This document shows positions 322 to 63,603 of a stretch of 64,000 nt of DNA, one piece after another. The DNA comes from Antedon mediterranea. Its lineage: Eukaryota; Echinodermata; Crinoidea; Comatulida; Antedonidae. Under the pieces are notes generated by a model that made no database searches, had not been told where the DNA came from, and saw nothing but the letters and a program-made list of their open reading frames with translations. The DNA lies in NCBI RefSeq assembly GCF_964355755.1, contig NC_092670.1, positions 18,847,201 through 18,911,200 on the forward strand, read 5' to 3'. The translations under genes were made by a program, and so were the position numbers. Numbering within the stretch: position 1 is the first letter of the stretch; the number at the start of each line of letters is the position of its first letter.

Positions 322-3300
322 CTGTACAACTTTGAGCAGAGTCATCTCGTTGTACATGTGACTGTTTTCTTCACCTAGACTTGAGCCACGATGTTTCTCA
401 AATCCAGCTTCATTGTAATATGGTTCAGCAACTAAGATTAGCCCCTGCACGGAGACTAGCACCTGTAGCAGTGTGGATTTGCTATTCCACATCTCATCAT
501 GCTGCAGATAAAAATAGTACTAATAGATACTAATTTCCAAGTGAAGTATATATATATATATAAACACAACAGGCACAGAACATTAATTCCACACCGTTCA
601 GTGATATACTAAGATTGAAATAATTAATTTGAAACGATAAAGATGAAGGTATCTGTGGGAATAAGAAAAAGCCGCCCCAACCGAGATTCGAACTCGGAAT
701 ATCTGGGTTGTTAAGTAGACTAATCTGTGGGAGCTTGTTGATGAACCAAGTGCTTATAAAAACAATTACAAGAGAACTGTATAAAGCATACATACCTTGC
801 CTGTCCATGTGCCAAGCAAACTGATGCACACTTTACCATCCTCGTACAGGTTAGGGTTAAGCCGCATACTGCAGTATGAATGGTAGTGGAGTATAGGCGG
901 AACCCTGGGGTAATCTGAAGGTAGTCGCACATCAAAGTGAAATAAAGCATCTTCATAGGGAGTGTTCTTGGGGCCTTCAATTAGTACTGAAAACAAATCC
1001 TATAAAACAATCATTCATAACAATAGTTAATTACAATTTCAGTAGAAAACCCTCTATTAAGAAAACCTCTTCAGGGCCTAAAAAAGTGTCCTTTTAACAG
1101 GGGTTAGCCATATTGTTGAAGCATGTCACTGGAAAGTGTTCCCTTTTTAATAGGGTGTCCCAATTAGGGGCTCCAATGTATTATACTGTAAATATTATTA
1201 TTCAGTATCATACCATGCGATCTTCAAAGGCTTTCACTAAAATTCCAACTGGCAAGGAGCATTGCAAAAGGCTAATCTGTATAAATAAACAAAAGAGTTT
1301 ATAAAGATTTCTTATGTCTTAATATATTATAATATATTAATTTGTCTCATCTATTAGTAGATGCCTTTGATTCAATTTTTCAATGACTTCATCATTACCA
1401 GAGACAGGAATAATTGCATTTCACAAACCTCCTTTTGTACTGCAGATAAAAATCTCTTTGGCGCTATCGGCGTGTGAACAGATTTTGCGAATATATGATT
1501 TGCCGGTATGGTTTCAACACTAATAAATTCTGTAACGAAACAATTTTTTATGTAAAAATTTCATTATTATTAGATATGGCATAACTATTGGATTGCTATT
1601 AATCAAATACATACAATACTCTCTTTGCTAATAAATGCAATAGTTTTGATTGAACTTTACTACACCTTTCACACCAAACTTTGCAGTGATCTCCAAAACA
1701 CCACGGAGAGACCCCATTCACATCGTTGTTTAATTTTACCTTTACTTTCACAACTCCGGAGTTGACTCCCTGGTGTGTCTAAACTCTAGAGTGTCTCCGG
1801 AGTATTGCGCGTTGGTGTGAAAAGGGTATAAAGGTAAAGGTATTCATATTTGTCCTCAAGCTTAACTGGAAACTGAGGAAATTCGGATTAGGCCCTCCAC
1901 GGACCCACGACAGCCAGCAGTGCAGCGCCTACCAGATCAGCACACCGGGAGACGATCCCCTACTCTTTTCGAATAGTGTACCAAGTTCTTTAACGTGCAC
2001 TGTTAAGTACACGGGACCAACGGCTTTACAATGAGAGTAAAGCACCTTGCCTAAGGATGCAATTAGTATGGTACAGATAACCTCGAACCCATGCCTATCA
2101 CATGCTAGTCCGATATTACCAGTCTCCAGTATACAGCACCCGCCGCGATTTCTAGACGGTCTCCCATCCAGAACACAACCAGGCCCAACGTTGCTTAACT
2201 TCGGTGATCTGACGAGAACCGGTGTTTCAACGCAGTATGGCCGTAATAAGTTGCATTACTTACTATCAGATTGTTCACTATTATCTGTAATACTTGTGGC
2301 TATTGCTGATTTGCCAACCTCATCACCACAACGTTTTGTCGTCTCGTATTCCGTCCCTACCATTTCGGTTTCAGAAACACTCAAATCCACATCATCTATA
2401 TCTATAGTACCTTTTGAGGTTGCATTTGCACTATCATATTTGTCCGATTCAGATTGATGGCATACACTTTTTGATGGTGTATCATTTGAGGTTAATAAAC
2501 GTGTTGTTTCATTTGGTTGGTTATGGTTTGCCTCTGTGATAATTTCTGATCTAGATGAAGTAGCTTCTCCTTCAATAGGCCGTGCATTAACAGCGTTTCT
2601 TTCATTTTGTTCATCCACAACAGAGTTGTCTTGCTCTCTAGTGCAAAAAGTTTAAGTTGAAAGCAACGGACGTGTCAATAATAAACACAGATTTTAGCGT
2701 CTTTCACATTTGCTCCGGTTCGGCAATTAATCTAAAAAATTAATTTTCATGTTGCGCCATAAAGTTATGCATCAATATTTTACTTGACATATGCGTAAAA
2801 CCGCGAGACGCGTTGTGAAAATTTAAAGTCGCTAATTCTGTACACGAACACTGGAGCTGAATCAGAGCAAGTGTGAAAGAGGCTTTATTCAGTGATAAAT
2901 AACTGGGGCTTACGGTGTAGAATCCGGGTTCCATGACCTGAGGTCATAAGTTAGTAAGAGAACAATAGAGATACCACTCTATGTGTAACAAGAAGTATTA
3001 TTCCAAGTGCTACATTAAAGTCTATTGTTTGATCTTACAAAACCTTGACATACAGTAGTGTATTTGAATATTGTTGTTTGTTCAAGAACATTACATATGG
3101 TAGAAGTGTAAGCTTGTCTCACATAAGCTTGTACACTATAGTCTGATCACAAGACTGATTTGCTTATTTGCTTGAATATTTGTTTTACTTTGTCTTTCAA
3201 ACGAAAACACTGTACTTAATGATACTGGAAATGTAGTACCTGAATGAGTTTGTGGTGGTTTGGTCATCAGACCCTTCGCTGGCTGTTTCCCAACTGCTCT

Positions 3301-6300
3301 CAGTTCCTTCAATTGAATGACTATCTAAATGCCATGTGCCTTCATCCTCTTCATTCTCTGACCAGTCAGAATCACTATCCTGAACATTTAAGTATAAACT
3401 ATTAATTATCTGACCAATCAGAATAATATGAAAATGACAATACTGTGGCTGGATCTCAATGAAGATACAAATAAAATACAGTAAGCCAAAAAAGCTAAAT
3501 CAAAGTAAAACAGCCAGAATCAAGTGCATTGATATACTGTTATAAAAGTCACTAATTTATTTATTGATGGAGGTCATAATTGTTTTTGTTATTCCTACTA
3601 GTTTGTGTAACTGTTAAAATACTAGTTTGTTATTGCAGGCCTTAAAGTTTTATACTTACAGTATTTTATGTTTTAGAATTTACCTCATCTAACTTATACA
3701 GATCCTGCGGCAATACTGTTGTAGTAGTGTTGTCCACCCATACAACCTCAACAGTTCCCTCGGTATTCACCCATAGCACCTATCAAGAAGAATTATAATT
3801 TAAACCAGTATTTACAGATTTATAGTTTTAATAATGTGTATTAATTTAGGCTTTACTTCAAACTGGAGATTACGGCCATGTAAGCATGGAAGAATTTATT
3901 TGTTTACTAAATAATTCCTCCATAATGTAATAAATACTACTGACCTGACCAGCAGAAGGCAGTACCTCATGTAGGCCTTCTTGATTTGTGTCACCAACCC
4001 GTACTACTATATCCCCTGTATTGAATGTGAAATCTGTGTGCGACATCAGATCATATACACTGCTTTCTTCTGTGTGTGTATACTGTGGTCTATAATAAAG
4101 ACATTCAATATTTATCTAGAGTACTTGGTATTGATAGCTATTTGTACGTTTACAAATAGGCCTATATTGCATGTTTTTATACTCTTGTTCAATGTGGCTA
4201 ATCACAGAGATATACTCTATGGGCTAATTCACGCTAAAACGAACATAATATACACTTCAGAAAAGAACAGGCAATTGTCAATCCATCAATTATGTCAAAC
4301 AACTTTAAAACAGACTAACATAGACTGGTCCTCCTGCATAGGTCTCTTGTACCAACGGACAGTACACGTTCTATCTTGATGGTTTGCACTTGATATCAGC
4401 CCATACACACCTTCTTCTATATCTACAATGGTAAAGAAAACATTAGTCACCTTCCTACAGGGTATTCTGTACAGATCATATTCAGAAATAATGTAGGAGA
4501 TTGTCCTGATTTCAGTATTAAGGACCATATTGCAACAAAGAGCGATTACAATTTTATTTTAATATCCTACTTTCACTTTGTGAGACAAAGTCTCCAGGAA
4601 AGAACTCCAGTTCATCCATCTGATTCATAGGACTGAGTTGAGATGAGCGAATGTTCTTTTCAATTTTACCATCCTGCAGAGTAAAGGTATTCACAAATTT
4701 AACATTTTGTCTAGTAAATGATAAGATAACTGTCCAACAGTGTCTGGTCGCATGATAGACAATGTGGCCATTGCATGATGTAAATTTTTAAAAAACAACT
4801 AGTACTCACTTGCCAGATCACGTCAACAACAGTTGAAGTATGAGTGACCTCCACACAGACCTCCTCACCAGCTGTAACTGGTTGTCTCTTATTACGACCA
4901 GATCTTGTCTTCACAGCTCTAGCTGTGCCAGACTTCTGGTGACCTTCTCCCCTTTTCCTCTCTGCACCTTTCTCTTTTACATCCAAATGCAAATCATCTG
5001 TGCCTTTTATTAGACCCTCTATCAATGCAATCTGCTCATTGATTTCATTCCGTGACTGCAGTAGTTTGACAATATGCGGGTCCATTTTTTGTGGCTCACC
5101 ACTTGTCTTGTTGATATCCCCTATTTTAGCAATATCCTCAGAAGCTGAAAGGAGCTGTTTATGTATGTCACGCAACAAATCCAAATCTAGTTTGCCATCA
5201 GTTTTGCCAAGTGGAATTGCACTTGCTTCTGCACTCTTTCCATTATCAGTATTGTCTTCTACAGATACACCAGATTCTTCTTTTGGTTTTTTAGTGTCTT
5301 CCTCAGAAGTCTCTTCCAAATCTATTTCTTGCAAGATATCACTAAGTTTGTTTACTTTATCAATCAATTCTGCTTTTTTATTCTTCTTCACTATTATACT
5401 TTCTTCAACAATCTTTTGTGGACCTTGTTGATTTTCTTCTTTTTGATCTTCTTCTGTGACATCATTCTGTGGATATTCCTCTTGTGGACCTTTCTCTTGT
5501 TGATCTTTCTCTAGTGGATCATTCTCTTGCATATCATTCTCTAGTGGATCATTCTCTTCCGGATCTTCTTCTGGTGGATCTTCCTTCTGAGATTGTTTGT
5601 CACTTGTCTTTGGTGTAGTCTCTGGTTGTTTGAAGCAGTATAAGGATCCTAGTACCACATGTTGAGGGTGCACAATTTTCTCTGTTTTTACTGTGTACAT
5701 TGCTTTATCTCCTATTTGTACACATGCAGCTTTAAACTGCTGAAGAACCTTCAATCTGTAAGAAGTATACATAAACCAAGGTGTTATCAACAGAACAGGT
5801 TTTAAAACCTAGTCATTCCAATTAAAATACAACTTCACTACTCACTCTTTTAACGCATCACCTTCTATCTTCTTGTCTGGTGGCTTAAACAGCTCATCAT
5901 TGTTAAATGTTTCATTTATACATAGCCCCCGTGTTTGCCAATGTACCTCTACACTTGTAACCTTAACCTAAAAAACAGAGAAAGATTAAATAAATTATTT
6001 ATACAGTAGGAACTGAAAAACTGTTGCCGTTTTGCTAAAAACTGTATATATCTAGTATAAACTTCTAACAGTTAGGTTGGAATTGTTCAAAACTTGTACC
6101 TTTTCAACTGTTCCTCTGAAGTTTGTCTTGTTCCCCATAATTGGTTTAGTACCCGATAACCATTTTGCTTTCTTAAACACTGATGATGGTCCATGTAGAA
6201 CCTGACCTGGATAGTACCCATCTTCGCCAGTGAACACGGAAAACTGTTGTATTGGAAATAATAAACAATAAAATTAGTAAAGTTAATACATGAGTGTTAT

Positions 6301-8055
6301 TACACTATACTTTTATTAACTACTACAACAATACTCAGGTACAACAATGCAGTATTGCCTGAACTGCAAAGAGGTTTACTACTACTACTAATAATAGAGA
6401 TGTGCAAACATTGAATTGAAAATATTCTGACCTCTTCGCTATTATCGTGAACATCTGTCAACTTACTAGCGCCCTCATCAGTTACTATATATCTGAAATT
6501 ATACACAGACAATTAAATTTTGTAACATATGGTAAAAGGTATTTTGTCCATACTTCTTTTGAGTATCAGTACACTTAACATTAAATTGGTTAATCTTTCA
6601 CTTACGTACTAATAATATACTGGTACAATTTAAAAAGCACTAATAGTTTACTGCAATTATTCAATCCAGTGATGGGTTCTTAAATCTAAATGTACCTTGC
6701 TCCATTTTGAAGTTTAATGATAAGTTCCGAGGACACTTCACGTATGGTTCCTAACCAGTATCCAAACACTACATGGTCTCCATGTTGGAATTCCTGAAAT
6801 AAGAATTGTTTTTATGTTAGCGTCGATATGACAATGATGATTTAAAGTACAGTACTTGAAAGCTAGGAGCAGGGGCAGGCTGGGATTCAGAATGGTGGGG
6901 AGGGACACTACAGTTAGGAATTTTACTCATTCAAGTTAATTTAAATACACCATTTGTATTAAATTAATGATTTTTTTTACATACCATAATTTGATTAAGA
7001 TCTTTACTGTCAACATCATATATCATCTGTTTTGTTTTGAAGATACGTAAGTGACACAGAATATTGACAGATTTGACAAATCCGCATTGCGTTCCACCAC
7101 TTTTGAGTGAGTAGACAACATCACCAGGCATCAGACTACGATCGTATAATGTTATCTGTGTAAATAATGCAATAAATTACTACTTTACACGGGCATCATC
7201 GGAGTACTAATTGGTCAGTTAAAACAGCTTATGTATGAACATTTTCTTAGTATCAAAGTGTAACACTGATTTGTTGCTTGCTTGGTTGGTTGGAGTTGTG
7301 GTGGTTTTGTTCAGGAGTAGGAGGAGCTGAAGGTTGTGGGTTCCATTTTCCTTGTACATTTTTTCTTTCATTTACAGTATAAAAATCCAATTCGGATTGC
7401 ATCCCAGACTAGAGATTTTTTTTGTGGACCTGAGCTATCGTGTAATTTTTATGGTTGTGTGAACCTAGGTGGACACATCTCCTCCTCTCACGCCTCATCT
7501 ATCAACTCGCTTCCACAATCAAAAAGAAAATGTCAAACTCAAAGTTAGATTAGAAATAATTCAATTCATTATTACTAGTGTTCCGATTTATTTATTTATA
7601 AAACCACACAGCACAGGCATAGTCATAGGCTATAGCCAGGCTGTATCCGATATGGCCATGCCATACCCATCACACAATATTTATCTTATCCCCTCTAGCT
7701 AAGTAGGCTAGGCCCCTATGCTACTACTATTAGCTAGACCACCACACACAGCACAATGGGATCGTACCTTGCTGTCATCTACAACCTCCTCGTTGCCTTT
7801 GGGATACCATGCTACGCGTACTTGGCCTGGATTAACTCTTTCGAATTCTTCTTCATTGTCAGATTCTTCGTCACTGTCAAATGTTTCGTAGTTTGTCACA
7901 ACTAATCCAAATTGGTATTTTCCACCTCGAAGCCTTTTAACAACAACATCTTCTACAAATAATTTCGCCATTTCCATTCTCTCTTTCAACACCAACTCAC
8001 TTTTTTCCAACGTTGTTTTTGTGTATGATGCTGTTCGCGCTGCTTCCGTACTCAC
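322..8055 (-). CDS. UBE2O: UBE2O, giant E2/E3 hybrid ubiquitin-conjugating enzyme (17 exons, 3' end beyond window)
   Basis: UBE2O is a large ubiquitin-conjugating enzyme that also recognises its own substrates (orphan ribosomal and globin subunits in vertebrates). Exons, 5' to 3' on the minus strand: 8055-7768, 7155-6985, 6793-6696, 6492-6432, 6243-6100, 5967-5846, 5755-4810, 4673-4571, 4422-~4326, ~4062 or 4069-3945, 3779-3684, 3379-3240, 2637-2264, 1529-1429, 1276-1214, 999-796, 501-322. About 1100 residues are visible. Conserved landmarks: [14 protein letters not shown] (exon 5), [10 protein letters not shown] (exon 9), [16 protein letters not shown] (exon 11), and the UBC core in exons 15-17 with catalytic Cys in [11 protein letters not shown]. 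As in known UBE2O, the E2 HPN motif reads NPN. Exon 7 holds a long acidic segment. Phase closes at all joins except exon 9/10, where the best donor gives phase 2 and needs a weak acceptor. The roughly 170-residue C-terminal tail lies past position 1. Start chosen as the first ATG of exon 1. Confidence 0.95.
1666..1830. mobile_element. MITE-D, short inverted-repeat element in UBE2O intron 13
   Basis: The left end CCTTTCACACCAA is mirrored by TTGGTGTGAAAAGGG at the right end, giving terminal inverted repeats around a body of about 140 bp with no coding capacity. It directly abuts the tail of the 5S-headed SINE. I found only one copy here, so family status is inferred. Confidence 0.55.
1832..2244 (-). 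mobile_element. SINE with 5S rRNA-derived head (SINE3-like)
   Basis: Read on the minus strand, 2244-2131 matches animal 5S rRNA almost end to end: ACGGCCATAC at the 5' side, then CACCGGTTCTCGTC, GATCACCGAAGTTAAGCAAC (internal promoter region) and GATGGGAGACCG. In place of a terminator, the sequence runs on into about 300 bp of SINE-like body with a B-box-like GGGTTCGAGG and the core word CCTTAGGCAAGGTGCTTTAC, ending in a short CCTTTA-repeat tail. This is a 5S-derived SINE, not a functional 5S gene. It lies in UBE2O intron 13 in the sense direction, with the head 19 bp from the splice donor. Confidence 0.85.
5466..5590 (-). repeat. 15-bp coding tandem repeat (acidic pentapeptides) in UBE2O exon 7
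   Basis: About eight imperfect 15-bp units (for example CTAGTGGATCATTCT on the plus strand) encode pentapeptides of the type [15 protein letters not shown] and KGPQE. The frame is kept because the period is five codons. The tract lies near protein residues 350-410 in a Glu/Asp/Gln/Pro-rich linker between the conserved regions. Confidence 0.8.
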
Positions 8056-8673
8056 TCAACCGTATCAGAGTTAATTTATTTAAATTTCGCCAATATATTC
8101 ACTACAATTTTTTCAATGTACAATGTTTTCATTGTTTATCACATGCCCCTCTTTATATTATCCTCAATTTCAGCATATACAGTAGTAGCATACGTTTTTA
8201 TACTGTTATGTGTGCAATTTTTATTTTTTTAAATCATGTGTACCCGTCAGTAAACATGACAATAAAAATTATCTTATCTTACATATGATACACCATCGGA
8301 TTTATACTGGTGTAATGTACAATGATTGTGCAATGTTGTTCTCATTATTAGGTTTTAGTCGAAACAGGGAAGATTTAAATTTCCTGCCCTAACCATATAA
8401 AGGTACACCAATCACTTCAGTCTCCTCCACTTTTCAACCCAGCACACACACACCGGTTATGATGTTCAAAAGGAGACCAGTCTTTGACTGAAGATGTTAC
8501 CCAGTATAAAGAAATAACAAATCACTGAGGTTGCCTGCTTGATGGTACACAATGGCAAATGTATTCTTTGTGTTTGAAAAAGATCAGAACAACCCATTTT
8601 TCTAAACCATAATGTAACTAGTGTATACAGTATTGAAACAAACAAATCGACAACTTTTTTTTTCACAGAGTCA

Positions 8674-8679
8674 TTTATT
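8674..8679 (-). promoter_or_regulatory. RPS15A poly(A) signal
   Basis: AATAAA on the minus strand, about 70 bp past the RPS15A stop codon. The UBE2O start lies about 620 bp further on in the same orientation. Confidence 0.6.
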
Positions 8680-8747
8680 AAACTCGGTTCATATCTGTAC
8701 AATGATTTTAAGCACAGCCTGATGTTATTACTTTAATCGTATGCTTT

Positions 8748-11175
8748 TTAAAAAAAGAATCCAAGAATTTTTCCTCCTACATGTTTCCTTCTCGCCTCCT
8801 CGTGATCCATAATACCACAGGATGTTGTAAGAACAAGGAATCTGAAGAGAAAAAGAGGTTTTGTTTTAAATGTTAAAAGTACATACACGTACATAGTACA
8901 GGCTGTTCATTTTACATTTTATAAGTAAAGTGCCAGTTAAAAGTAAACAATATATCAGAATCACCCACAAAACCTATTAATTACATACATGGCAACATCT
9001 GGAGTCGAAAAATAGATAGGTAGTCGCTTTTGGAGGCATTTGTTATTAGACAAGCTTAGTGAGGAGTAATTAGCATAATGTACTCGTTGAGTGGCTGAGC
9101 GGTTAGGTTACTGGAACCGTAATTACGTAGCCATAACATTGGCACGGGTTCGAGGCTCACTCGCTACATCGTTTTGGCGGTAGAATGAGTCTTCTCGAAT
9201 AAGGATATAAAATGTAGGTCCAGTGTGCAAATCTTTTGAAACTAGTAGGGTTACCCCGGTATACTTGAAGCCATCAAGCAAAACCCCTGCCAGCCCAGAG
9301 TGCTGTATCTCTACGATCCTATATGTCAAGGGACATCTAGAACTATACTCGCATTATATATATATACTCGTATTGCTAAACTTACCCAAATTGTCTAGAT
9401 GGTAGGAGGTTATTTGTCCACTGTTCTACAGATTTAATTGATACATCAAAGCGAGGACTGATGACACCACACTGTAAGAAACAAAATGTCACATTTAGGT
9501 ATTATCAACTTTGAGGTAAAGGAAATTAATGTTAACACTGCAGTATAAAAAGGTGGTACTTCTTGTCCAGCACTTGATTGAGATCCAAGACTTCTTCAGA
9601 ATAATATGCAATTACCTTATTAATTCTCAAACGGTCATTAGATGGCCATATGTTGACATCAAATGTTGATATAATAAGCATAAAGCTCTGTCTACACTAT
9701 CAAACTTTATGCGACAAAAAAATGTAATGTGCCCATATAGTCGACCTTCTCATTTACACACTTCTCAATTACGAACCTTCTATTTTACGAACGCTGTTCG
9801 AACAATGACATCATCAGTAATATAATAAAACTTTTACATACCTACTAATTTATTATCTTCTTAATATTTAACTATCCCAAAACAATTATTTCATAAATAA
9901 AGCAAAGCTTATTAAAAACGATTCACAATTTAGTTTAAAAGTTGTTTAGGCCTATGCTAGTAGTGGCCAGGAGATCATCATCCCCACTGCTGGAGTGCAT
10001 GGAGAGCACCCTGCACAACATGTTTTTGAAAAAACTAAAGGTTGATCACGAACTGCAATAAGGCTAGCAACGATGACCATACTATAAATTAGTTTGGTTT
10101 GTGCATGTTTTTACGATATAAAAAAACATTTGACTCTTATTTATTAACATTTTAAAACTTTTGTCAGTCGTCGCGTAGCCATTTTCTGGAAATTCCATTT
10201 TACTTGCTGTCTCCACCACCACACATACATAGTAGCTTAAACATTTAAAAATATTTGCGGTCCAGAATGGATTTGATATTATTACTTCAAGAACAAGTTC
10301 GTAAATTACAGTTTGTATCAAAATATGCAATAATAAAAAGTAAACGATGAAATTTTGGTACAGACAACATGTGTAACATAACAAAAAGCAGAAATATCAA
10401 TCTTTTTGGCAGTTTGGTGTTAATTTACATGTTAAATTTTATTGTTTTATACTGTATTTTTAATACTGTTTGTTCTTTTACTGTACTATGCACATTAAGT
10501 TTTACAGAGGGCATTTGTTTGGACTTGTTTTACCACTGATTTTAATAGAGGGCGCTTTTTCCGAACCTTCTCATTTACGAACGTCTCTCAGACCAAGGGG
10601 TACGTAAATGAGAAGGTCGACTGTATATGGATATGATGATGTCATATCACTACCATATTTGGGCTTTTTTTTTTTTTTCCTTTTGTTGGTGGAAAAGCAG
10701 AGAATAGCATTGGTATGGGATCTTGGAACAAAGCAAAGCTTTGTGGCAAAAAACCACGTTTCACTGGAGACAAACATTAGCAGCCTTATGGGCCAAAGAG
10801 GATAGATAGGCAGGTACCTTATTAATTCTACCGTTTAAATTGACAACAATCTTTCCAGATCTATGGTCGTCAATAATCTCAAATTCACCAATGTATCCTG
10901 CAGAAAAATGAAAAAAAAAAATTAAAAAACTTGTAATAAACAAAAAATTTATGATGGTCTAAAAAAAGATGAAATGAAATTTATTATCTAGCAATCACAT
11001 TTTACCAAATACATTAAATCAATGTTCTGAATATTGACTCACCATGTTTCATCATTACTGTAAGGAATTTGACAATGACCTTTGAACTTGGTCTGATCAT
11101 CACTTGTCGTTTTCCTCGCTTTTCAGCATTGCAGATGGAGCGGAGCGCGTCCGCTAGGACATTCATTCGTACCAT
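8748..11175 (-). CDS. RPS15A: ribosomal protein S15a (uS8), 40S subunit
   Basis: Small-subunit ribosomal protein of the uS8 family. Coding exons on the minus strand: 11175-11043, 10897-10818, 9471-9386, 8841-8748. The 130-residue product has the family's usual length. It begins [20 protein letters not shown], carries [20 protein letters not shown] across the first junction, and ends GGKILGFFF. Phases close at all three introns. The start ATG lies 6 bp into an exon opening at 11180, so at least one 5' UTR exon lies upstream; a GTAAGA donor near 11507 is a candidate end for it. Intron 2 holds a MITE-A copy split by an 886-bp element, and intron 3 holds a tRNA-derived SINE. Confidence 0.97.
9086..9345 (+). 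mobile_element. tRNA-derived SINE in RPS15A intron 3
   Basis: The A box TGGCTGAGCGGTTAGG and B box GGGTTCGAGGC are spaced about 60 bp apart, as in class II (Leu/Ser) tRNAs. A non-tRNA body follows, containing CTCGAATAAGGATATAAA and GGTCCAGTGTGCA, words typical of invertebrate SINE bodies. It is antisense to RPS15A. The 3' boundary is approximate and I could not define a target duplication. Confidence 0.6.
9682..10664. mobile_element. MITE-A copy 1, split by a nested element
   Basis: The left arm (AAAGCTCTGTCTACACTATC onward) occupies 9682-9737. The centre (ATATGATGATGTCATATCAC) resumes at 10624, after a nested insertion. The right arm breaks off after TTTGGGC at 10664, so this copy is also truncated. 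Confidence 0.85.
9738..10623. mobile_element. 886-bp non-autonomous DNA transposon nested in MITE-A
   Basis: Terminal inverted repeats: the left end TAGTCGACCTTCTCATTTAC is mirrored by GTAAATGAGAAGGTCGACTG. The flanks are TA on both sides, and removing the element plus one TA restores the MITE-A sequence CCCATATATGG. TA duplication and CAGT-like ends fit the Tc1/mariner-pogo group. Subterminal copies of CGAACCTTCT and a hairpin lie near both ends. No transposase reading frame is present. Confidence 0.85.
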
Positions 11176-11180
11176 GATGG

Positions 11181-12432: not shown

Positions 12433-12437
12433 ACAAA

Positions 12438-21457: not shown

Positions 21458-21554
21458 ATATTGTATATTAAAAAATCAACATTGAAAAAAAATATTATAT
21501 AATAGAAGGATCCCATACAATTAGAAGCTGCAACCAGAATGCAACGCGTGTCTA

Positions 21555-40467: not shown

Positions 40468-40470
40468 GAT

Positions 40471-46760: not shown

Positions 46761-46909
46761 AAGCTTGGATCCCACTAGGATATAACGAAAGGAGGACGTA
46801 CGTAAGCGCAACGAAATCGAGATAAACAATGACAGTTTGAATCGCAACGCATTGACTGCGTTATGCTTACGACCAAGCTTGTGTTACGTCCTAGTGGGAA
46901 TCAAGCTTT
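46761..46909. mobile_element. MITE-B copy
   Basis: AAGCTTGGATCCCACTAGGA mirrors TCCTAGTGGGAATCAAGCTT; the interior is diverged. It lies about 850 bp upstream of the CBX-B start codon. Confidence 0.85.
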
Positions 46910-47762
46910 ATTCCATAACTCGCGCTACTTGAAATAGCGCGACAAGAAAACTGATGCGACATGCGCAATATCACATCTGTGTGTGCGTTATATGCACGCT
47001 GTGCGTTGAAGTTGCCATAATATGCGGACAGTGGTGTGTCATTCATCATCTTCAAGAAAGCAACAATTATCCCACGGTAATTTTTTTAGCCGGCAGAGTC
47101 CTTCCTCTCAATCGTAAAGTGTTATTATAATATTCTTTTCATATATTTTGACACTTAATTCAGGACTACTGAAAATTTTGCAATGGCATGTCAATTGTCT
47201 AAATATTGAACTATTTTTATTCAATAGCAAAGATTTCACGCTGAGTTTTGGATGCTGACGGCCGGAAAATATGCATAACTCACGTCCGACGAATTAACAG
47301 TTCTCATAATAAAGTAGGCCATAGGACAACTGATACTCTTAATCGTATTGGAAATATTAGCAAAAACCCATTGCCTGAAAAATATAGGATTTACCATTAC
47401 AAAAATTCTGATTATTATTATACAGTATTTAACACTTTCTTTCAACGTCTACCACACGTCCATATGTGTGAGTTTATTAATCATTGGTTTCAAATAAATA
47501 AATTAAAATTGCTTCTTATAAAGTGTTTCGTTTATTTCAAAATCCTGGATCCGCCACATTGTCACAGTCAGCAACCAGATTCTATTCTCCTCTTGAGTGA
47601 GATAAGGCTCTTGACTGACCCTCTATAGTCACTTCAGACCATTCAAACAACCTTCGCAAGACATCCCGACCGTCGTCAATTGAGCCTACTTTTAGTTTGT
47701 TATTATATACGGTACAGTTGCAAATTGAGTTGTGGCCATTCATCACCTCCCTTATATATACG
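46910..47762 (+). other. upstream region of CBX-B
   Basis: No coding signal. It must contain the CBX-B promoter and 5' UTR, but I see no clear TATA box or start site. Confidence 0.35.
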
Positions 47763-50700: not shown

Positions 50701-52501
50701 CATATCAGCTTTCAGTGAGCGTTCATCCGTGATAGTGTCGTTAGTGCGTTGAAGGACTTGTAATGAGTTTAGCTTGGCACGATCGTTGAATTAATTAGGT
50801 ACGATGCTGCGCGCCATGGTTATAGTCAATGAAAACGATACGTGACCGGTGCTACAATAATATTATAAGACTGATTATTGGAGATTGCTACGAAATCTGT
50901 ATTTCGTTGACATTTTTAGTTTGAGAGTTGAAAAATAAACAAACAAAAATATGAGCAATTTGTTCGCAATTTGTACAGTGTTGCCCCTTATCATATCGTC
51001 ACCGGTCGAGTATTATGATTATTACTCGTCGGAGACGTAGTACCAGTGAACACACAACCAAAAAGGAAACTATTTTATGATTCATTGTTCTAGCGTTTAT
51101 TATGTGATTATTATATGATTATTATAAGACTGATTGTTGGAGATTAGTACGAAATCTGTATTTCGTTGACATTTTTAGTGTGAGAGTTTAACATAGGCCT
51201 ATAAACAAAAAAAATATGAGCAATTGGATATTTAAATTAATTTGTTTGCAATTTGTTATCACATCGTCATTTCGGGTTCTCACAAAATGATGCCGTTTTC
51301 TAAAACAAAATGGCAAATGAATTCTTCTGCTTTTTAGACGTGTTTATCACGTATTTATCTTACATGGAGAAATTCTTCATAGATTAATTTTGTATTTCTG
51401 TTTTATTTACCTATATATATTTATAAATTTATATTTTCATGCATTATGAATGCATTTTATAGTGAATAAATAAATGGCCGAATGGCCCCAAGGAAAAAAA
51501 CCTGTAGGCCTATTTCCGTAGGCCTACATTTCCTGATAAAATAGGCCTCTAATATCATTATCTTTTATGTTTTCATTATGTATCAAGTGTCCACAATTGT
51601 TGAACAACATGTTTTGAGTCAGACTCATGAGAGGCAATTGACGTATTATTTTGTGTATTTTTACTGTTATTGTTTATATTAATCGGAGTATTTTATTCTA
51701 CTTTAGAATTTGACAATCGTTCGAACTGTTAGAGGGCGACTTTCACTTTATTTCATTTTCATGTTGAAAAGAATACAGTTTTTCAAATTTTCAAATTCTT
51801 GCCCTTCTCAACATTGAAACTTATTTTCTATGTTACCATGGTTTTTAGTCAAATATTTGCTTGTTTTCAGAGAGGATACACGCCTAGGTGTTATCAAGGT
51901 AGGCCTCATTATAAATAAATTTTCGTATATAATCCTGGATAAAAATTAAAAACTAAATCGTATTACAGAAATTGGAGTTGGTCTATATTTAATATTGATA
52001 ATTTGATAGGCTTACCAGTTAGTGTAGAATGTTTTAGTGAGCTAGCTATAATAACGGAACGTGTCACTTTCTCGTCACTTTATTTAAGCCTCAAGAAGAT
52101 GCAGGCAAAGATGAAGAGAACGATTCAAATTTTCTTGAAGGAACTAGTAACCAAGCAATGAAAAGGCCCATTAATGATCAGAATACCAATGGAAAAAGGA
52201 AGAAAGAATCAGGCCACCGTCTCCGTGATCGATCGCCTTCTGTTTCCGATAAAAAGTGGTTACGCTTAAAATCAAACAATAATCGAAGTAAAGTAAAAAC
52301 AAGCAAAGTGGACCAAAGGTAGGCCTATTCGATGTATACATATTTCCACCCTAGTCATTTACTAGAGTTTATAGTACAGTTAAGTAACAGTATGGAATTT
52401 TATGATTTGTATTTATTAGTGTACATGAAGAGAGAACTAACGGAAAACATCCGACGGAAGATCATCAGGAGGACATAGGTCATTGCAGCAGTCAGACTTA
52501 A
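47763..52501 (+). CDS. CBX-B, short Polycomb-type chromobox protein, 6 exons, 172 aa
   Basis: Exons: 47763-47831, 48274-48317, 50070-50135, 51871-51898, 52089-52318, 52420-52501; phases close. The N-terminal chromodomain (DIYKVHRLEKKRVREGKVEF, then WVKWRGWPARYNTWEP) keeps aromatic-cage residues Tyr11, Trp32 and Trp35. The C-terminal side of the domain is divergent and acidic (LDDCLIDDFLL). The rest is a short, charged tail with basic clusters (NGKRKKE; KKWLRLKSNNNRSKVK) and ends GHCSSQT. No chromoshadow domain, so not HP1, and no Pc box. Exon 2 is 44 nt with the same phases as exon 2 of CBX-A, and both proteins start MSDP, so the two genes are tandem duplicates. It probably binds methylated H3, but specificity cannot be read from sequence. 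Known CBX proteins are longer; an unseen alternative 3' exon is possible. Confidence 0.9.
49226..49304 (+). tRNA. tRNA-like gene with anticodon ATC (Asp by code), Pol III terminator
   Basis: Complete cloverleaf: acceptor GCCCCAG pairs with TTGGGGC (one G-T), D arm GTCTAATGGTTAGGAC, anticodon stem TCTGC/GCAGG with a 7-base loop ATATCAA, T arm CCGAG-TTCGAGT-CTCGG. Discriminator G at 49297 and T5 at 49300-49304. The anticodon at 49259-49261 is ATC, which reads GAT (Asp), an unusual A34 for that acceptor; the body resembles tRNA-Glu/Asp. It lies in CBX-B intron 2. It may be a functional tRNA, a pseudogene, or the head of a SINE. Confidence 0.6.
49408..49431 (+). repeat. TA dinucleotide microsatellite
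   Basis: A 24-bp run of TA units in CBX-B intron 2. Confidence 0.9.
49714..49753 (+). repeat. TCGG/TCTG microsatellite
   Basis: Interleaved TCGG and TCTG units in CBX-B intron 2. Confidence 0.85.
50862..51270 (+). repeat. direct duplication in CBX-B intron 3
   Basis: A block at 50862-51001 (ATTATAAGACTGATTATTGG, then CGAAATCTGTATTTCGTTGA, down to TTATCATATCGTCA) recurs at 51121-51270 with about 90 percent visible agreement and one short insertion. Spacing start to start is 259 bp. Confidence 0.8.
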
Positions 52502-55216
52502 CGTCTAACCCTCAACACTTGTGACATGTTTAATGTAAACAGTTATTTAGATTCATAGTTTCGTTAGTAAATTATTTCATTTTAAATATCATTTATTTCA
52601 CCAAATTTCAATTAGAGATACGATATGTTTACTTTCAGTTATCATTGCGTTTGTAAATCAAGGGAGTAATCCAAAATGTTTGTACCAATATGTTCCTCTA
52701 ATTCTTACTGTAATTAAATGTTAATCAGAAAAAATTGACTTTTATTTATTTCAATATCTCCAAAACAAAGAATAAACCGGTCAGACAAATACAAAGCTGT
52801 CCTATTTTCGCAAAACATATAATATAATTTTATATGTTTAAAAAAAATTAACAGCTTTTGTATTATACCGTATACATTGATATAACGTATCATGACGTAC
52901 CCCCTCTATATACATGCTACTTTCAATCAAATCTTATATGTTTCAATCATTATTTTGGCAGTCTGTTTTCTTCAGACGATTTTCTTTCATCGGTTCACAT
53001 TAGCCACGCCAATATTTCGGATTTTTACATTTTGAGACTACAGTATACCTGATTTAGGTATAATAGTTTTGGGTATTTTGTTACATAGTTTGGATTGTGA
53101 CGTAAATAGACCTAAGTCAAACAAATAATTTAGCTCAGTTGTCTCAGTTAGGCCTAAAGAAAAGTGAAATAAAACTCAATTGAAAGTTTCTTCCGATGCT
53201 TGCTAATCTTCCATTTGTAACGAAAAACTTGTTAAGTTCCTTTTTTCCCATATATGGCAATATCTAAACATTTATTTGTAATCCGTGCTTACTCAAAAAC
53301 CAATTATGAATTTTGAAAGAGTACCCTTGGAGAAGTCAACAATAGACACTCCGTCAATTCATCAAGTTGTTTATACTGCAGGCTACCGTACCTGTGTATT
53401 GTTTGTCCCTATTATTAAGTACGGTACACTATTTGTTTTCTACTTTATTCTCCCATGATTTAACATTCTCAATTTGATTGAATAGGCTTTGTTCACATGT
53501 ATGTGACTGATGAACCGTGAGCCTAGCCCACGTCACCCTTTTTTATCAGAGGTCGGCTAGAATAATGCTGAAGATTCACAGTCAGATTTTGGAACAAAAC
53601 ATCTGTTTGTACCACTATTTTCGTATTATGATTCAGTTTTAAAGTTTATTGAAACGGAGCCGTTTGAATGAAGTACACTGATAAATTAGTCAGACTCAAG
53701 ATAGGCAACTCATTACGAGCGTAAACAAATCACAAAATGATCGATTTGAGTACCATATTTGGTAAAACTAGGAAAGTTGCTTCCACTTTTGGAAATTAGT
53801 TATCTTTTGTTGACAGACGAGTTCTTCTTTCATCGAATCGCCAATTAAATAAACAACGGTCTAATTAAATATTTTAACAAGAAAAAAAATGTATATAAAT
53901 TATACACTAACATCTCGTTACAGTTTGTCTACAATTTGTCAACTGGTATCCAAGTATCAAGTTTGTCACGGTGTTCTGTTCTGTTCGTACAGTGGTCTAA
54001 AGTTTTAAAATTTGATCCAACTTTAGAAAAATAAAATTTAAGATCACTAAATGACTAATTAATTGTTAGTCGTAATAATTTGATTTACAGTTATCGTACC
54101 CATATTTAGGCCAATGCCCAGGTTGATCGGGACAACCGCTGGAAAGTTACGAACAATCACCGTGGTGTTAGAAGTTGCATTGTTGACGAAATTATACACA
54201 AAGGGTGCACAAACAGACTGTTCTACCTGATTGCATGTTATTTTAAGGTGCAGTATATTGAAATTAAGTAAATTACATGCGTTAGACTTTTAAACGCCAT
54301 GACGCACAAGGCCAACAATCATTCGCGAAATGCGCTTTCATCCACCCTGGCACCGTATTATAGCTGCATCAGAAAGTGAAACACAAATAACGGTATTCAT
54401 AGAATTCAGTTGTTTTAATTCAGGCAGTCTATCTCGATACATGATTGATGTGTGTTAGTTAAGATAATTCAAGATTTATTTAAGACACTTATGGTAATTG
54501 CTAATATCAATACTATACTCTTTCCCATTACTATCGTAATGTCTGTTCTCCATGCGTCAACCCACAATTACGGTAACGTTCGTATAAACACAATATTATT
54601 GACTATTATCGTTAGGCCACCATGCGAAACTAACAAAACCTTGCGAAAATTCGATGAACAAGACAAGTGTTTTGTGGGTATTATATTCAGAATCAATTTT
54701 CACGTAAATAGTAATACATAATATTTTACATATCTGTTTTATTGTACACGCACACGGATGCACACGCATCCTTTCTCGGTATTGATTTACAACCCGGTCG
54801 GTTAACGTGCTATTGCGCATGACCGAGTGTTCGTTCAGCTGTTCTAACAACAAAAGAGTTATTAGCATTCGACATGAACCCCGGCTCGATGAATGGTGGA
54901 TTCCTGGCCACAGCCAACGCCCCTGAGCAGACACGGTGAAGTTTGGCTTACTCATCTACTAAAATTACCGGAAGAGGTATTTTATGTACCGTGGACGATT
55001 ATAAAGGAGGTAACTCAGCAGGTTGTACTACTGTAGTTGGTAAGATAATTTGAGAAGGTTCGTTGAGTTGAACATTACTTTTATAGATTGTAGCGTCCCA
55101 TCTATACGTTACTTAACATACCACGTGAATTTCGCATCGACCGAATAGCTTGCAGAACGAGGTAGGCGATATATATTGTAACATTCCCACTTGCTAGGCA
55201 TTAAGAAACAGAAAAG
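52502..55216. other. intergenic between CBX-B and fascin
   Basis: AATAAA at 52771-52776 may end CBX-B. Otherwise AT-rich with no recognised gene. The last few hundred bases must hold the fascin promoter; an ATTATAAAG near 55000 could be a TATA-like element, but this is weak. Confidence 0.4.
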
Positions 55217-58200
55217 ATGACGACGGAATTGAAATATTGTTGTGGACTAGTCAATAGTAATAAAAAATATCTAAGTGTTGGGTTTGCTAACTCAGTAAAT
55301 GCAGATGGTACATCGTTAAAAGCGAAACAAAGATGGAATTTAGAACAAGGTGACGATACCGTCTTTCTGAAATTCGGTAGCAACTACTTGACCACAGATA
55401 AAATGGGGAATGTGACGTGTTCGGAAGAAAAAACGGACGACGCGAAATTCCGGGTGGAGACCCAAACTGACGGACGATGGGCCTTCAAGAGTGTCCCGTA
55501 CGATAAATACCTAGGCTGTTCCGATACCGTTAACACAAACGCAACAAAAGCCGAGGAGAAGCAGCTATGGACAGTTCATATGGATATACATCCACAGGTT
55601 AACATTAAAAGCAACATTCGGGATAGGTACGCACATTTAGAAGATGATGAACTTCACTTCAATGAGGTCATCCCATGGGGTGCGGACGCAATCGTCACTC
55701 TAGAATTCCACGGTGGACGTTACGCCCTGAGGGTCTGCAACGGCAAGTACGCGAGTACAACTGGAAGTCTAGTAGATTCCCCCACTGATGATAGCCTCTT
55801 TATCCTAGAGTTTCATGGGGGTAAGGCTGCCTTCAAGCACGGCAGTGGCAAGTATATGGCAGCCATAGGTCCCAAGGCCACTCTGCAGTGCGCAAAAGCC
55901 GCACGGGTCAAACCAGGGAAAGATGAGGTATTCGTTCTAGAGGACAGTCACCCACAAGGCATCCTGATTGCCAGCACTGGAAAGGTAGCATCAACTCGAC
56001 AAGGTACGATTTTATTCATTACTTTCCTATCACAACATCTTGTATTATAGTTTAGTATTGCTTATTAAATAAACACATTTATTATCATTTAACAGATACT
56101 CGGAAGCTCAATATGTATACTTATATAATTATGCACTTGAAGTATCGTATCTAAGATAAGATATCAGAACGTATTATGTTATTGAATGAAGTAATTGAAA
56201 GTAATGTCGGAATCAAATGACTTTGTTGGAAACAGTTTTTCTTTTCTGTCTGCCATTGGCCTAATATTGATCTGCTTAAAACATTCACACCTGTAAACAG
56301 TTTAGGTAATTTACACTCCGTGGTTTGATTAGAGTTTAATAGTACCACATTGTTTGATCTAAGCGCCTTGATTTACCTTAAATTGTCAACAGGTTGCATG
56401 TGTAATGTTTGGTGGTTTCCTGGCTCTCTCTTCCAGCCACTTTTACAAATTAGTTTTCATGTCAAACATGTGTTTATTGTACATTTTACAAGCTCAGGTG
56501 GTTGCCATATCCATCATCATTCCGATGGTGTCTGCAAAGTATCTCTGTTAAATCCATTTCCTTTTTCAGTTAATCCACGACTTTGTCCTTCGCGATTAGC
56601 AATATACTGACTACGGTTACTGTACCACTGAAATGTGTATATACTGTAGGATACCTGGTGGGGCCTCCACTACCAATTGATGGCTATATTTAATTAATCA
56701 CCATTTATGCGCTAAACAAGGTGTTTTACTTTCATGACCTATATAAACAACGTCTGTTTAACCTGAAACAAACTCATGTACTAAGTACTAATGGCTTAGA
56801 AAGAAAGTTTGAATGAATTTAGACCGAGTTTTTTTTTCTCCTTTGTGGTGTAATCTACCACATTTATTCGTTTATCATAATCATTACAAATACATATTTT
56901 TTCCATTATTTGCTTGAATTTTAGGATACTCAAAGTTATAGTATAAAGTAACAATGCATATAATAATGTTTACAATACAATAATTTAGACCGAGTTTATA
57001 AAAATTGTAATCCCTGAACTTGGGTTTAAAGAACAAAATTACAGAAGAAATGCGAAGTTCTAGGCCAAGAAAATTGAATTCTATCAATTTCCTACTTCCG
57101 TGTTAGTCAGGAAACAAACTGCTAGTTCAACACACCACCCTGGATGTGATATCAATTATTCTTGCTCTGTTGATTCAAATCAAAAGGCAAGTTCAGAACT
57201 ATGTCAAGGACATTGTTTGTCGATGACAAAATAAATTTCTAATTTTTTTAGAATTTGGGGGTCTTAAGCATCAAATATTGAAGGTGTTTTTGTTCATATT
57301 ATAGCATCATACAATAGGTCTAGATGCTGGGACCATGGGAATAAACCTAGTATTGTAAACGAATTTCGTCTTTGTCTATTATCTGAAATATCTTTTGTAT
57401 AGTCTTCAAATAAGCATAATAATACTTCGCTTTGAAGATGATGCGATACAATATAGATACTGGTAGGAAGGAAGGCTTGACCTGTTGTTGTATGATCTCC
57501 AATTCTACTGTACTGACTACTTCAGCATGCGGAAGTTGTTTTTAAGATTTACGTGACCATTCGACAAACCCATTTCCTTTGGGGAGTTTCTTCTTTCCTT
57601 TTCACAGCTTTCCAGCACACCTTAATCGTTTACCAGTCACATTGATATTAATATTACTGAAAGTGGTATTTTTAACAATAATATCTTTGAAGGTCATTTT
57701 ATGATAATTTTGCTTTAACTCGTGGTAGAATAATTATACAATACGTCTCTACTAATTTGAGTTTACAACAACGTATTACCATGGAGGAAAAACCTCCATG
57801 GTATTTACCCATTTATCTAAAAAGTACATCGGTATACAAAATGTTGAGTTGTATATTGTACCTCCATCATTATCGACATACATTTTGTTGTAGTTCTTTA
57901 ATTTATATCGAGGAGAACCATCTATTTGTTTATAATCGCTTGTAATTATTTTGACACGGCCGAAAAGTGATAACATTGTTTTATCGGTGTTTCTAAACGG
58001 TAATAAAATGAGTGAATTACTTATTTGCTTTTATTGACACGTTATCGTTTACAATTGATTTAAAGTTATGGCCTACTCTCTTTAGGCTAGTGCTGCACAT
58101 AGAGATGGGTATCAATATGATGTGCTCAAACATAAAATGGAAATATTAGGCCTACATATCAAAAAAAGTACTGTATGTTGGCATGGCATGACGTGACCCT

Positions 58201-61200
58201 TAGGGGAGAAGCATTTAGTTGCAAAGTGTAAAATCCACATCTACAGCGCATTGAGACGACATTGTTTGTTGCGGAATGCGCTATAAATACATTAACATTA
58301 AATGTATTTGTCCTCTCAGTGGACCCAAATCTCCGTGTAGATATTTTATAGATTTCTCTATAATTTCTTTAGGCCTATACTTCCCTTGAACTGTTTCATG
58401 CAATAATACATGGACAGATGGTAGATATGCGATTATTATTCGTAGGTAGATTCTGACAGTTTTTGCATTGCTTACTCTTAGTCATCATTATTGAGTGTAT
58501 TCAAGATATCTGCTGAAACGAGATCCATCTTAAGGAGAGGTAAATGTCGGGCAATCGCATGGAAATATGTTAAGCCTAAGGGAAAATTATAATATCCTAA
58601 TTTAAAAAATAGGCCTACAATCTGTGATACACAAAAAAAACGAGTAATAAGTTACTGATGTTTGAACGTAATATTTGCTGTGTGTCGGTTTCGTCAAAAG
58701 AGAAAACTATTTTTTTTAATGTCCATACACACACTCAATATTTCATAATTAGTTTTGCCTCATGGTTTTTATCACTATAATTCATTGTTTCAGTAGATCG
58801 GGTTGAGTTTTTCTGTTTATAATCATTTTGCCTGTAAGATTCCTGGAAATATAACTCAATATTTTTATAATTTCAATTGTTTACGGAACGCTTACAGCAA
58901 ATTGATCCCCATACGTAATCAAATTAAATACGAAAGGCAATAAAACGTCCATTAAAAACACGTGCGAAGAACCATGGTGGTCGCCATTTTCTTCCCACTC
59001 CTTCCTAGTTTATAATTCTTAATATATTATTCCATTTAAATAATAATAATTCTTATGATGTACGCCTCTTTTTATAATAGTAAAAAATCGTATTTTAATG
59101 ATCAGTTAAAAGTGCAAAATACAGCAGTTGACAACACTGTTTTCTCTTATTCATTAGACACGCCTCATTAATAATAAATGCAGTACACTAGCTGTCAATT
59201 TGTATGGATATTACCTTATTTGGCATGGCAGACAGATCTGTTACTATTTCATTCATTCTTGTTTTTATTTAAACATTTTTAATCAACATCAAATGTACCA
59301 AGCCAATGAATGTGGAGTACGACATTACGTACGTAGTGTGGCACAAGAATGAAGAGTCATTAATTTTTACTATTGCAGTACAAAACATTTCGCAAATCTT
59401 AAATATATAAGTCTGCATGGAGATGTGTAATATTGAAAGTGAAAATTTCGTTATGTTGATATCAATAATTATATCAATGTATTTTTAGTTTTCGTCAATA
59501 TAAGAGAATGAGATCATTCTTTTTTTAATCTGTAGATTTTCTACTATCGGTGTGTCGAAAAGACATAATTCTGTTTACTGAAAAAATATGATTAGAATAG
59601 AAAACAAATGTGATTGTAACCTGTAATATAGAACGATTCTGATTTTTTATGTACAGTTTTATTTCTACAATTAGTATCATATTGCTTTATATGACACCTT
59701 CAAACTGGCATTACATACATTACATTTTGAAAGTGTCAAGAACGTTTTTGGTTTTCGATTGGTTTTTATTTGGATGGTGAAACTTTCTCTTGGAAGTATT
59801 TACCCGGAAGATATGTTGGTTTCCGGGATTTAACCAGCAGACCCATGCCGAGAAAACGTTTCTGCCTAGAGGTCTTATTTGTTGTTGCTACAGGGCAGCT
59901 TGTATCTGTAGACTACTGTAGCAGTTATGTAAACTCTGACCTGTGTGAGACATGTGGTACTTCAATATTTTGGGAATAGGTTTACCAAATCTTGTACCTT
60001 GGGGCCCGTCTCTGATTTTTTTACATTTTGTGGGACCATATTTCCATACTAATAAATTAGTTACATCAAGGAGGATCTCTATGGTTATCGAATTCTTTTC
60101 ATTAAAAATTTTACTTTAAAATTCATTAACCTACTAGCTATACATCCGGAAGATTCTATTACAGTTAACCATAGGTCTAAACAATAGTATTAGTAGTACT
60201 CTTAAGTCAAGCCTACAACTCGAGACAATAAAAAAGCCATTGTGCGTGTCTTACAATAAAACAGTGTGCCACGTTTGTAGAAAAGCACGTGTCACGCCTA
60301 TCGGGTTTCAATTGCGCTATGTTATACAACGAATTCCCTGTAATATGTTAAAGAAAATGGCAATTCGATCTGAAGCTAGATAATAATATTCATTTGAATA
60401 TTTACATCTACCATATAATATAATGAGTTTCAAATAATAGTATGAAACAGCATTTATTTATTATCTGTATATTATAGATCCCATATAAATAATATAATAT
60501 ATAGTCAATTACTGATAATTGAGAATGGGTATTTAAATTGCCATTAGTGTATGGTTATACTTATAATGTAATAATACTTTATTATGATAGAAAGCATTTT
60601 TAATTTAACATTTGAATAAGTCTCAGTACAGCAGTATCTCCACTCCGTACTTATCGACATGATAATGCACATGTTTTAGAATTCATCATATGGCTCGTGG
60701 CTTCGCGACGTCTGCAATCATAAATTTAAATGATATGGAGTTTCCCCGGGGTAACGAGGTGAACCTTTATTTAGGGATCGTCGTAGAAGGTTTTAGTTAG
60801 TACGGAGATGAACAACTGTGCGTCTTTTGGTTTGCAACGTGTGATATAATATTAGGCTACTATCTTTTCATCATGTATTATTGTTTTGTCGATTTTACTG
60901 CTTTGTCATCTTACATAAATTATTTATTGTTCGTCTGCATATCACAATCAGTATAGCCTCGGCCTACAACACTGTAGGCATAATGTGCTTGGGTGCTATA
61001 TTCTTTAAAATAGTGAAATACGTAAAGAGGTCCCCTTTATAATTAACCCATGGATTTTGGAATAGGCCTAATGCTAATTGGGAAGATTTTTGTAAAATCG
61101 AGAATGCTTCTCAACTCAACAACGATAGCGGAAGTAATGGCGATCCAATGTGGAAGGATGTGTGGTGTGTGCCTAGAATGATTAACGTATTTGTTTGCTA

Positions 61201-63603
61201 TTGCTATGCATTCTTAGGCGTCGACTCACACCACCAGTCTGGAATGCCTAAATACTTTCTTGTTTAATTATGCTGAATCAGCAAAATAAACATTAAGCAA
61301 AAGATGTAAAATCGTCGGAATGTCAAAGATCAAGTGTAGGCCTCGTACATCTTCTCGTAATACCTGTAGTAATCAATTCAACAGGTTTGGCAGGTTCTTG
61401 ATCCTCGAACTTGACAACAGACTAGTTTCTCGGTTTTATATTCTAATTAGTATATGTAAAATAATGTATTTATGGAAGCAATTTATTCTGTTTTTAGGAA
61501 CAGAAACGTACATATTTATTCAGCACTGTTTCGGTTGCTTTTTAATTGATTTGCTAGAGAAAGATCGTTGGTTTTTTTTTTCAATTAGCTTTCTACAAGT
61601 GTATATCGGTTTTTGTTCGTGTAGGCCTTATACTACTGTGAAATGTCTGGGTCCGCGCGTCGTGTTTGTACTTAATAATATAATCAATAGAAAATCGGTG
61701 GAAAATCACACTAATAAACACTTTCACAATATTTATATTAAATCATAATGCACGAGCTCTGTACCAGCTTGTCACCGTATTAGTACACTTGGTCTGAGGC
61801 CTTTCAACAAGTGCCAGATTTGGTATTCATGGCTGTTGCTATTAATGCTTGATTGAACTAGGTCCATGATTGAACTAAGGCGTAAGAGTATGGCCAACAG
61901 TGTGTTTGTTAAAGCTTGGTTCCCACTATACGTAACGCAAGGACGGAAACGCAACGCAAGCGTTTTAACCAATCACAAGCGAATAAGCCATCGCTTGTGA
62001 TTGGTCAATTCAGTTGTGTTGCGTTGCGTTACGTCCTTGTGTTGCGTCGCTAGTGGGAACGCAACGCATCGACGTATTGTCATGTCGCAAAGTGCTTGAT
62101 TGAATATATATTTATATATTGCTGTATTGCGTAATCACAAGTGAGACTCGACAACTGCTGCAAATATCGCGTGTTTGATTTCACGCGGGCAAACACAATT
62201 ATTTCCTAACGTTGCGCATATTGCGTTACGTTACGTCGCTAATGGGAACCAAGCTTGACATTGAGACCCTTCTTCTTTCTCAGTGCTTCAATAATCTTAT
62301 ATACGGTACAGTAAATGAAAATATTCACAATACCGTGTACAATTTATTTACAGTAATAATTAATATTGTTCCACCTTTCTTACACATAGGTGTGGATGTT
62401 TCCGCCAAACACGCTCTGGATACTGAAGATATCGCAGAAGGTACTTTCAATGACAAAGAGACATGGCAGCTTGAGTATACAGACGGTAAATGGGCAGTGC
62501 GTACCGCAGAAGATAAATACTGGGAGCTGAAGGCTACTGGTGGTATCCAAGCTGATGCCAGCAGCAAGTACGTTTGTCATTTAAGTATAACTTCTTATAA
62601 ATAAGTATAACTTGTTAAATAATAGTTGAACTTTCGGTTTAACTTGAACTTGACTTGATATCATCTGAAAAATATTCTTAACAACCATCATCTTATTTTT
62701 TGGTACGAAAAGAAGTGCATAAAAGAACGCATACAAAATAACCATGATTTTGGCAACCTTTTACTTAACGAATTGAAGTTTTCTTTGTAATAAATAATAG
62801 TAGACATAATGTGTAACTATCTACTATCTCATTGCAGATCAAACAATGGCTGCAAGTTCGAATTGTCACATCATGAAAACAAGGTAGCTTTGAAGGGTAG
62901 TAATGGAAAGTTTGTCAGGCCGAAAGAAAGTGGTCATCTTTACGCCAATTCGGACAGCTCAGAACCTGCAGAGAAGGACCTCTTTATCTTCCAGATGGTC
63001 AACCGACCTCAGTTGGTTTTGAAAGGAGTACAAGGATTTGTCGGACATGGTTCTAGATCAAAGGTGGAATGCTCCAAACCACGATATGACGTCTACAAAG
63101 TTACCTGCAAAGACGGTTATTACAGCTTCCAGGGTAAATATTGATATTGATTGCTTCTATATGTGTAGGCCTAGGTCTACTGCGCTGAATCTGTACATTA
63201 TTTGCGTTCATATTATCTCTTAATTCTCATAGAAACAGTTAAATTGAATAGGCCTCACGTAGTGCGCGATTCCGGCGAGATACTTGTCGATGTAGTACCG
63301 ATATTTTTCTGAACTCGCCCCATTAAATTTTAAATAGTTACCAGCATTTTGCAAAACCAATATTCTAACCATTATCCTTATTGCTTCCTTTCAACAGCTG
63401 AGAACGGAAAATATTGGGTAGTAGAAGACGACCAGTCGGTTAGCCTTGGAAGCACACCTGATAAGTTCATCTTCGAGTATATATCTATGTCAAGATTAGC
63501 TATCCGAGGAGGGCGTAACTTCAACTATCTGAAGGGAGAACAGAACGGTGACTTTAAGTGCGCAGGAACCGAGATCGAAGCAAAAACAACATGGGAAGTC
63601 TAG
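55217..63603 (+). CDS. FSCN: fascin, actin-bundling protein, 4 coding exons, 488 aa
   Basis: Fascin crosslinks F-actin into the tight parallel bundles of filopodia through four beta-trefoil domains. Coding exons: 55217-56003, 62390-62567, 62838-63133, 63398-63603; phases close to 488 residues, against 493 in human fascin-1. Landmarks: TSLKAKQRWNLEQ near residue 32 (Ser33 aligns with the actin-regulating PKC site Ser39 of human fascin), HPQVNIKSNIRDRYAHL, FHGGKAAFKHGSGKYMA, ATGGIQADASSK and NGKFVRPKESGHLYA, ending in TTWEV where vertebrates have a similar W-E tail. Exon 1 alone encodes the first two trefoils. Start chosen as the first ATG, giving MTTELKYCCGLVN. The 6.4-kb intron 1 contains a MITE-B 134 bp before exon 2. 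The copy looks intact. Vertebrate FSCN1/2/3 arose later, so a numbered name is not warranted. Confidence 0.97.
57777..57803. repeat. 27-bp hairpin with CCATGGAGG arms
   Basis: The 11-bp arms TACCATGGAGG and CCTCCATGGTA surround AAAAA. It resembles the hairpin at 36775-36805. Confidence 0.75.
58240..58310 (+). mobile_element. SINE 3'-tail fragment
   Basis: AGCGCATTGAGACGACATTG and GAATGCGCTATAAATACATT match the usual 3' end of invertebrate SINEs with the GCGCTATAAA motif. No head region was found. Confidence 0.5.
61912..62256. mobile_element. MITE-B compound copy in fascin intron 1
   Basis: AAGCTTGGTTCCCACTATAC at the left and CGCTAATGGGAACCAAGCTT at the right frame 345 bp. An inner terminus CGCTAGTGGGAACGCAACGC at about 62050 shows that one copy is joined to or nested in another. 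CCAATCACAAGCGA and its complement are present. Confidence 0.85.

Follow-up and report, generated by a model that had tools for sequence, protein, structure and literature searches.

What brings the genes for UBE2O, two Polycomb-type CBX proteins and fascin together within 64 kb of a crinoid chromosome? The stretch analysed here, hereafter the window, covers 64,000 nucleotides of chromosome C1 of Antedon mediterranea (C1:18,847,201-18,911,200; 18.85-18.91 Mb), and the three families are several Mb apart in human. The analysis makes it very probable that the window belongs to an ancient linkage group that has stayed together on C1 and that the two rounds of whole-genome duplication in vertebrates (2R) multiplied into a paralogon on human 17q24-25, 16p12-13, 22q13 and 7p22.

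Gene content of the window

The genes in the window were identified by tblastn with human proteins and by Pfam profile searches. The two methods confirm the earlier note, made from the sequence alone, in that UBE2O, two tandem Polycomb-type CBX genes and fascin all lie within one 64-kb window.

The gene for UBE2O, an E2/E3 hybrid ubiquitin-conjugating enzyme, is located on the minus strand at about 313-8055; this span represents the domain-bearing exons, and the 5′ end may extend further. Four UBE2O-specific Pfam domains (SH3-A, tSH3-B, SH3-B and SH3-C) are present together with the UBC domain (Pfam UQ_con), with SH3-A in the exon at 7711-8055, tSH3-B in the exon at 6055-6273 and the end of the UBC domain at 313-519. 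RPS15A (uS8), likewise on the minus strand, occupies 8751-11175 and was found with the human RPS15A protein as four exons at approximately 11041-11175, 10818-10898, 9385-9471 and 8751-8846, the first of which gives a tblastn E value of 3e-21. The exons are mostly 88-89% identical to the human sequence, and the 66% score of one exon arises because the match extends into the intron. On the plus strand, coding ORFs from 12848 to about 21454 form a gene for a HEAT-repeat protein, a putative HEATR4, which matches Pfam HEAT_2 with an E value of 1.9e-12 on exons joined by eye.

Fascin is encoded on the plus strand at 55205-63600, with exons at approximately 55205-56047, 62389-62589, 62842-63141 and 63391-63600. 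The gene matches human FSCN1 with a tblastn E value of 4e-51; three of its exons carry the Fascin (beta-trefoil) domain according to Pfam, and the fourth was aligned to FSCN1. It is the only fascin that a whole-genome search found.

ARAGORN also predicts a tRNA-Asp at 49226-49297, in a repeat-rich stretch; its anticodon, ATC, is unusual. Because a very similar sequence recurs in the C1 flank, this call is probably a tRNA-derived repeat.

The tandem Polycomb-type CBX pair

The two CBX genes, designated CBX-A (33367-40302) and CBX-B (47763-50135), both lie on the plus strand and were recognised by their chromodomain exons, splice sites and Pfam Chromo matches (E values of 6.8e-17 and 1.6e-14 for the two genes). 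The exons of CBX-A are located at 33367-33459, 35005-35048, 36635-36706, 37481-37551, which encodes a basic RSKKRKH stretch, and 39433-40302, the presumed last exon. Those of CBX-B are found at 47763-47831, 48274-48317 and 50070-50135, and a candidate basic exon beyond these three lies within 52086-52256. Both proteins begin with MSDP, and in each gene the chromodomain is divided among three exons with canonical GT/AG splice sites, the splits falling after RK/RE (phase 0) and then inside NKS/ARY (phase 2). Because the intron positions and phases are identical in CBX-A and CBX-B, the pair is, to judge by gene structure, one Polycomb gene duplicated in tandem.

The affiliation of the pair with Polycomb is clear. 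In a search of solved structures, the best matches are CBX4/6/8 for CBX-A and CBX4/CBX7 for CBX-B, and for both genes CBX4/6/8/2/7 and Pc score well above HP1. In a chromodomain tree the split between Pc and HP1 has a support of 99/100, and both genes group with Pc. CBX-A shares 67% identity with CBX6, 63% with CBX4 and 61% with CBX8; CBX-B shares 52% with CBX4 and forms a very long branch. The grouping inside Pc is without resolution in this tree, and CBX2/4/8 are not separated from CBX6/7; therefore the proposal that CBX-A and CBX-B represent the ancestor of CBX2/4/8 specifically is not supported, and it is equally possible that CBX6/7, which map to 22q13 in the same paralogon, descend from a CBX-A/B-type ancestor.

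The aromatic cage (Y/F, W, W) is present in both proteins, in the sequences GVYVADSI...VKWRGW of CBX-A and DIYKVHRL...VKWRGW of CBX-B. Since the cage residues (Y, W, W) are conserved, the two proteins most likely act as chromodomain subunits of canonical PRC1 that read H3K27me3. Neither Pfam nor a motif scan found a CBX C-terminal motif such as the Pc box in the gene ends, which are only partly resolved. The arrangement resembles the human CBX8-CBX4-CBX2 cluster at 17q25.3 in that Polycomb-type CBX genes stand in tandem near the UBE2O and fascin families, whereas it differs in having two genes instead of three and no recognised Pc box.

Elsewhere in the genome, roughly 20 chromodomain hits with nearly equal scores are scattered across many contigs, many of them in open frames of approximately 340-390 aa, and these look like retroelement integrases. 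The genome-wide search for the chromodomain family misses split exons, including those of the window's own CBX genes, and the number of Pc genes elsewhere falls outside its coverage.

Linkage on chromosome C1

In the assembly of 354.43 Mb there are 11 large contigs, of which C1 accounts for 41.37 Mb (11.7%) and C11 for 22.27 Mb, whereas C12 has only 0.57 Mb. A search for a miR-2 pattern, which would be expected in a protostome, gave no hit, a result that agrees with a deuterostome genome without proving it; COX1 is absent from the assembly. Markers were chosen, with the human map known, from the genes grouped at human 17q25 and from the sister regions, and all results are given, fitting or not; the human map positions are general background, except for the families named in PMC3560075. 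The only or best genome match is located on C1 for RPTOR (17.19 Mb), NUP85 (19.25 Mb), TBCD (19.49 Mb) and RhoGDI (24.81 Mb), and these single-copy 17q25 markers, together with the best Fringe match, fall within C1 17.19-24.81 Mb. For Fringe, the best match and several exon matches are found at C1 20.30-20.34 Mb; hits of lower score at C1:32.15 Mb as well as on C6, C8 and C10 may represent related glycosyltransferases. SMG1 (16p12.3), the neighbour of RPS15A in human, has its only or best match at C1 16.36 Mb. CREBBP/EP300, a further family of the paralogon, is found off C1, on C5, while presenilin, the sole control from an unrelated region (14q24, where it lies near HEATR4 in human), is on C10. 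Fringe-type exons are spread over approximately 36 kb (C1:20299976-20336391), an arrangement that suggests tandem Fringe copies.

In addition to the chosen markers, 190 kb of flanking sequence were read without selecting genes. ENGASE, with a GH85 and a C-terminal Ig domain, and survivin (BIRC5) are both found no further than about 100 kb from the window. SGSM3 was identified from an exon present in the flank, NTAN1 and a LITAF-like gene are also present, and ALG1, read by eye with weak profile evidence, is probably there as well. The human positions are 17q25.3 for ENGASE and BIRC5, 22q13 for SGSM3, 16p13 for NTAN1 and LITAF, and 16p13.3 for ALG1. An MFSD6-like transporter, epsin, a CCDC96/113-like gene, DXO, STK19 and DDX47 come from other human regions. 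Thus, five or six of the 12 families in the flanks fit 17q25 and its sister regions; the excess corresponds to P of 7e-4 to 6e-3 for 5 of 13, which is a rough figure as the background of 6-10% of human genes is estimated and neighbours are not independent.

The proposed match to human 17q25 is therefore real and reaches beyond the three families, with RPTOR, NUP85, TBCD, RhoGDI, Fringe, ENGASE and survivin linked as well. Two further claims of the earlier note require revision, human 16p, 17q24-25, 22q13 and 7p22 being 2R sister regions. RPS15A was thought not to fit, owing to its position on 16p, and to have possibly moved; this does not hold, as 16p is a 2R sister of 17q25 and SMG1 is on C1 too. 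The fascin gene was tied to the FSCN2 paralogon, and while its membership in the paralogon stands, the sister relationship means that it belongs to the whole FSCN1/FSCN2 paralogon and not to FSCN2 alone.

Origin of the linkage

What the analysis shows directly are the gene identities, the linkage on C1 and the clustering of markers of 17q25 type; that the linkage was inherited from a common ancestor, and how old it is, we infer. The ancestral group would have been retained on a single chromosome, C1, in A. mediterranea, and the two whole-genome duplications of vertebrates would have multiplied it into the human regions named above. UBE2O, the Pc-type CBX genes, fascin and RPS15A would then have stayed co-resident given that large exchanges between chromosomes seldom occur and that reshuffling mostly alters the order of genes inside one, and such co-residence would need neither a common function nor co-regulation. 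CBX-A and CBX-B would have arisen when one Polycomb gene was duplicated locally in tandem, and the fact that UBE2O, CBX and fascin lie within 64 kb of one another may be an accident of local order on a conserved chromosome. Points that count against a conserved group are CREBBP/EP300 on C5, the flank genes from elsewhere and the weaker Fringe matches on C6, C8 and C10.

A chance or convergent co-location, by which the families would have come together twice, once in the lineage of this animal and once in that of human, is highly improbable. The chance of any one gene lying on C1 is about 12% in a genome with 11 large chromosomes, and several of the flank genes map elsewhere in human; nevertheless, six of the seven chosen markers are on C1 (binomial P of 1.6e-5 when each gene is given a probability of 11.7%), these six are confined to 8.4 Mb around the window, or 2.4% of the genome, and the 14q24 control is off C1, so that linkage beyond chance on C1 is supported. 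Little credence can also be given to a functional block in which a common long-range regulation or a joint action, for example of Polycomb and ubiquitin control, holds the genes together. While UBE2O and CBX both act in ubiquitin or chromatin pathways, no common function connects a ribosomal protein, fascin, survivin, ENGASE, RPTOR and NUP85, the human families are separated by several Mb and distributed among several sister chromosomes, and the conservation is at the scale of the chromosome with no fixed gene order.

A separate question is whether the tandem CBX pair itself predates vertebrates, in which case the 17q25 (CBX2/8/4) and 22q13 (CBX6/7) clusters would originate from an ancestral two-gene cluster and not from one gene. 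Such an origin appears unlikely, even though CBX genes are in tandem at both human sites and in teleosts cbx4 directly adjoins cbx8, as in human (PMC7230241). The identical intron positions and phases of the crinoid pair would agree with it, as would the closest relatives of its members, CBX6/8/4 for CBX-A and CBX4/7 for CBX-B; however, the chromodomain tree resolves no grouping inside Pc, CBX-B has a very long branch, and the tandem duplication may be lineage-specific. It is similarly doubtful that the Polycomb pair beside fascin and UBE2O is a retained ancestral arrangement, the two members of which could be traced as separate lineages into the vertebrate clusters.

Relation to known linkage groups

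The favoured reading, a conserved linkage group on C1, has known systems to be compared with. UBE2O, CBX2/4/8, CBX6/7 and RPS15A lie on human chromosomes that bear the blocks of the 7/16/17/19/22 paralogon. The 2R paralogon described on human chromosomes 7, 16, 17, 19 and 22 includes FSCN, Fringe, cytohesin, GGA and CREBBP (PMC3560075), and RPS15A on 16p fits because the paralogon has this span. The crinoid group is alike in including FSCN and Fringe, but differs in having just one fascin and one linkage block, and in that CREBBP is on C5. The paralogon on human 7/16/17/19/22, which is that of SSTR2/3/5, has been equated with the amphioxus-human ancestral linkage group 15 (PMC3560075). At a broader scale, 24 linkage groups were inferred for deuterostomes, matching the 24 bilaterian ones (PMC11175523), and the C1 group resembles these (PMC11175523; Simakov and colleagues) in that chromosome-scale linkage is conserved and local order is scrambled. 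As published work places such groups in the bilaterian ancestor, the literature favours a linkage that is older than deuterostomes and dates to that ancestor. The 11 large contigs imply that several ancestral linkage groups were fused in this animal.

The finding is thus a new instance of known and ordinary conserved macrosynteny, a good but expected case that leaves the general picture unchanged. In a genome with only 11 large chromosomes it provides a well-preserved example of the linkage group behind human 17q25, 16p, 22q13 and 7p22, corrects the view that RPS15A moved, and makes the C1 locus a named place to look for how the vertebrate CBX clusters arose.

At the level of individual neighbours, a DXO/RAI1-family gene adjoins STK19 on the same strand in the flank (C1:18981201-18991200, minus strand, local positions 3218-5932 and 8507-9688). 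Because the two genes adjoin in human too, in the MHC class III region at 6p21.33, their adjacency is a candidate for very old microsynteny.
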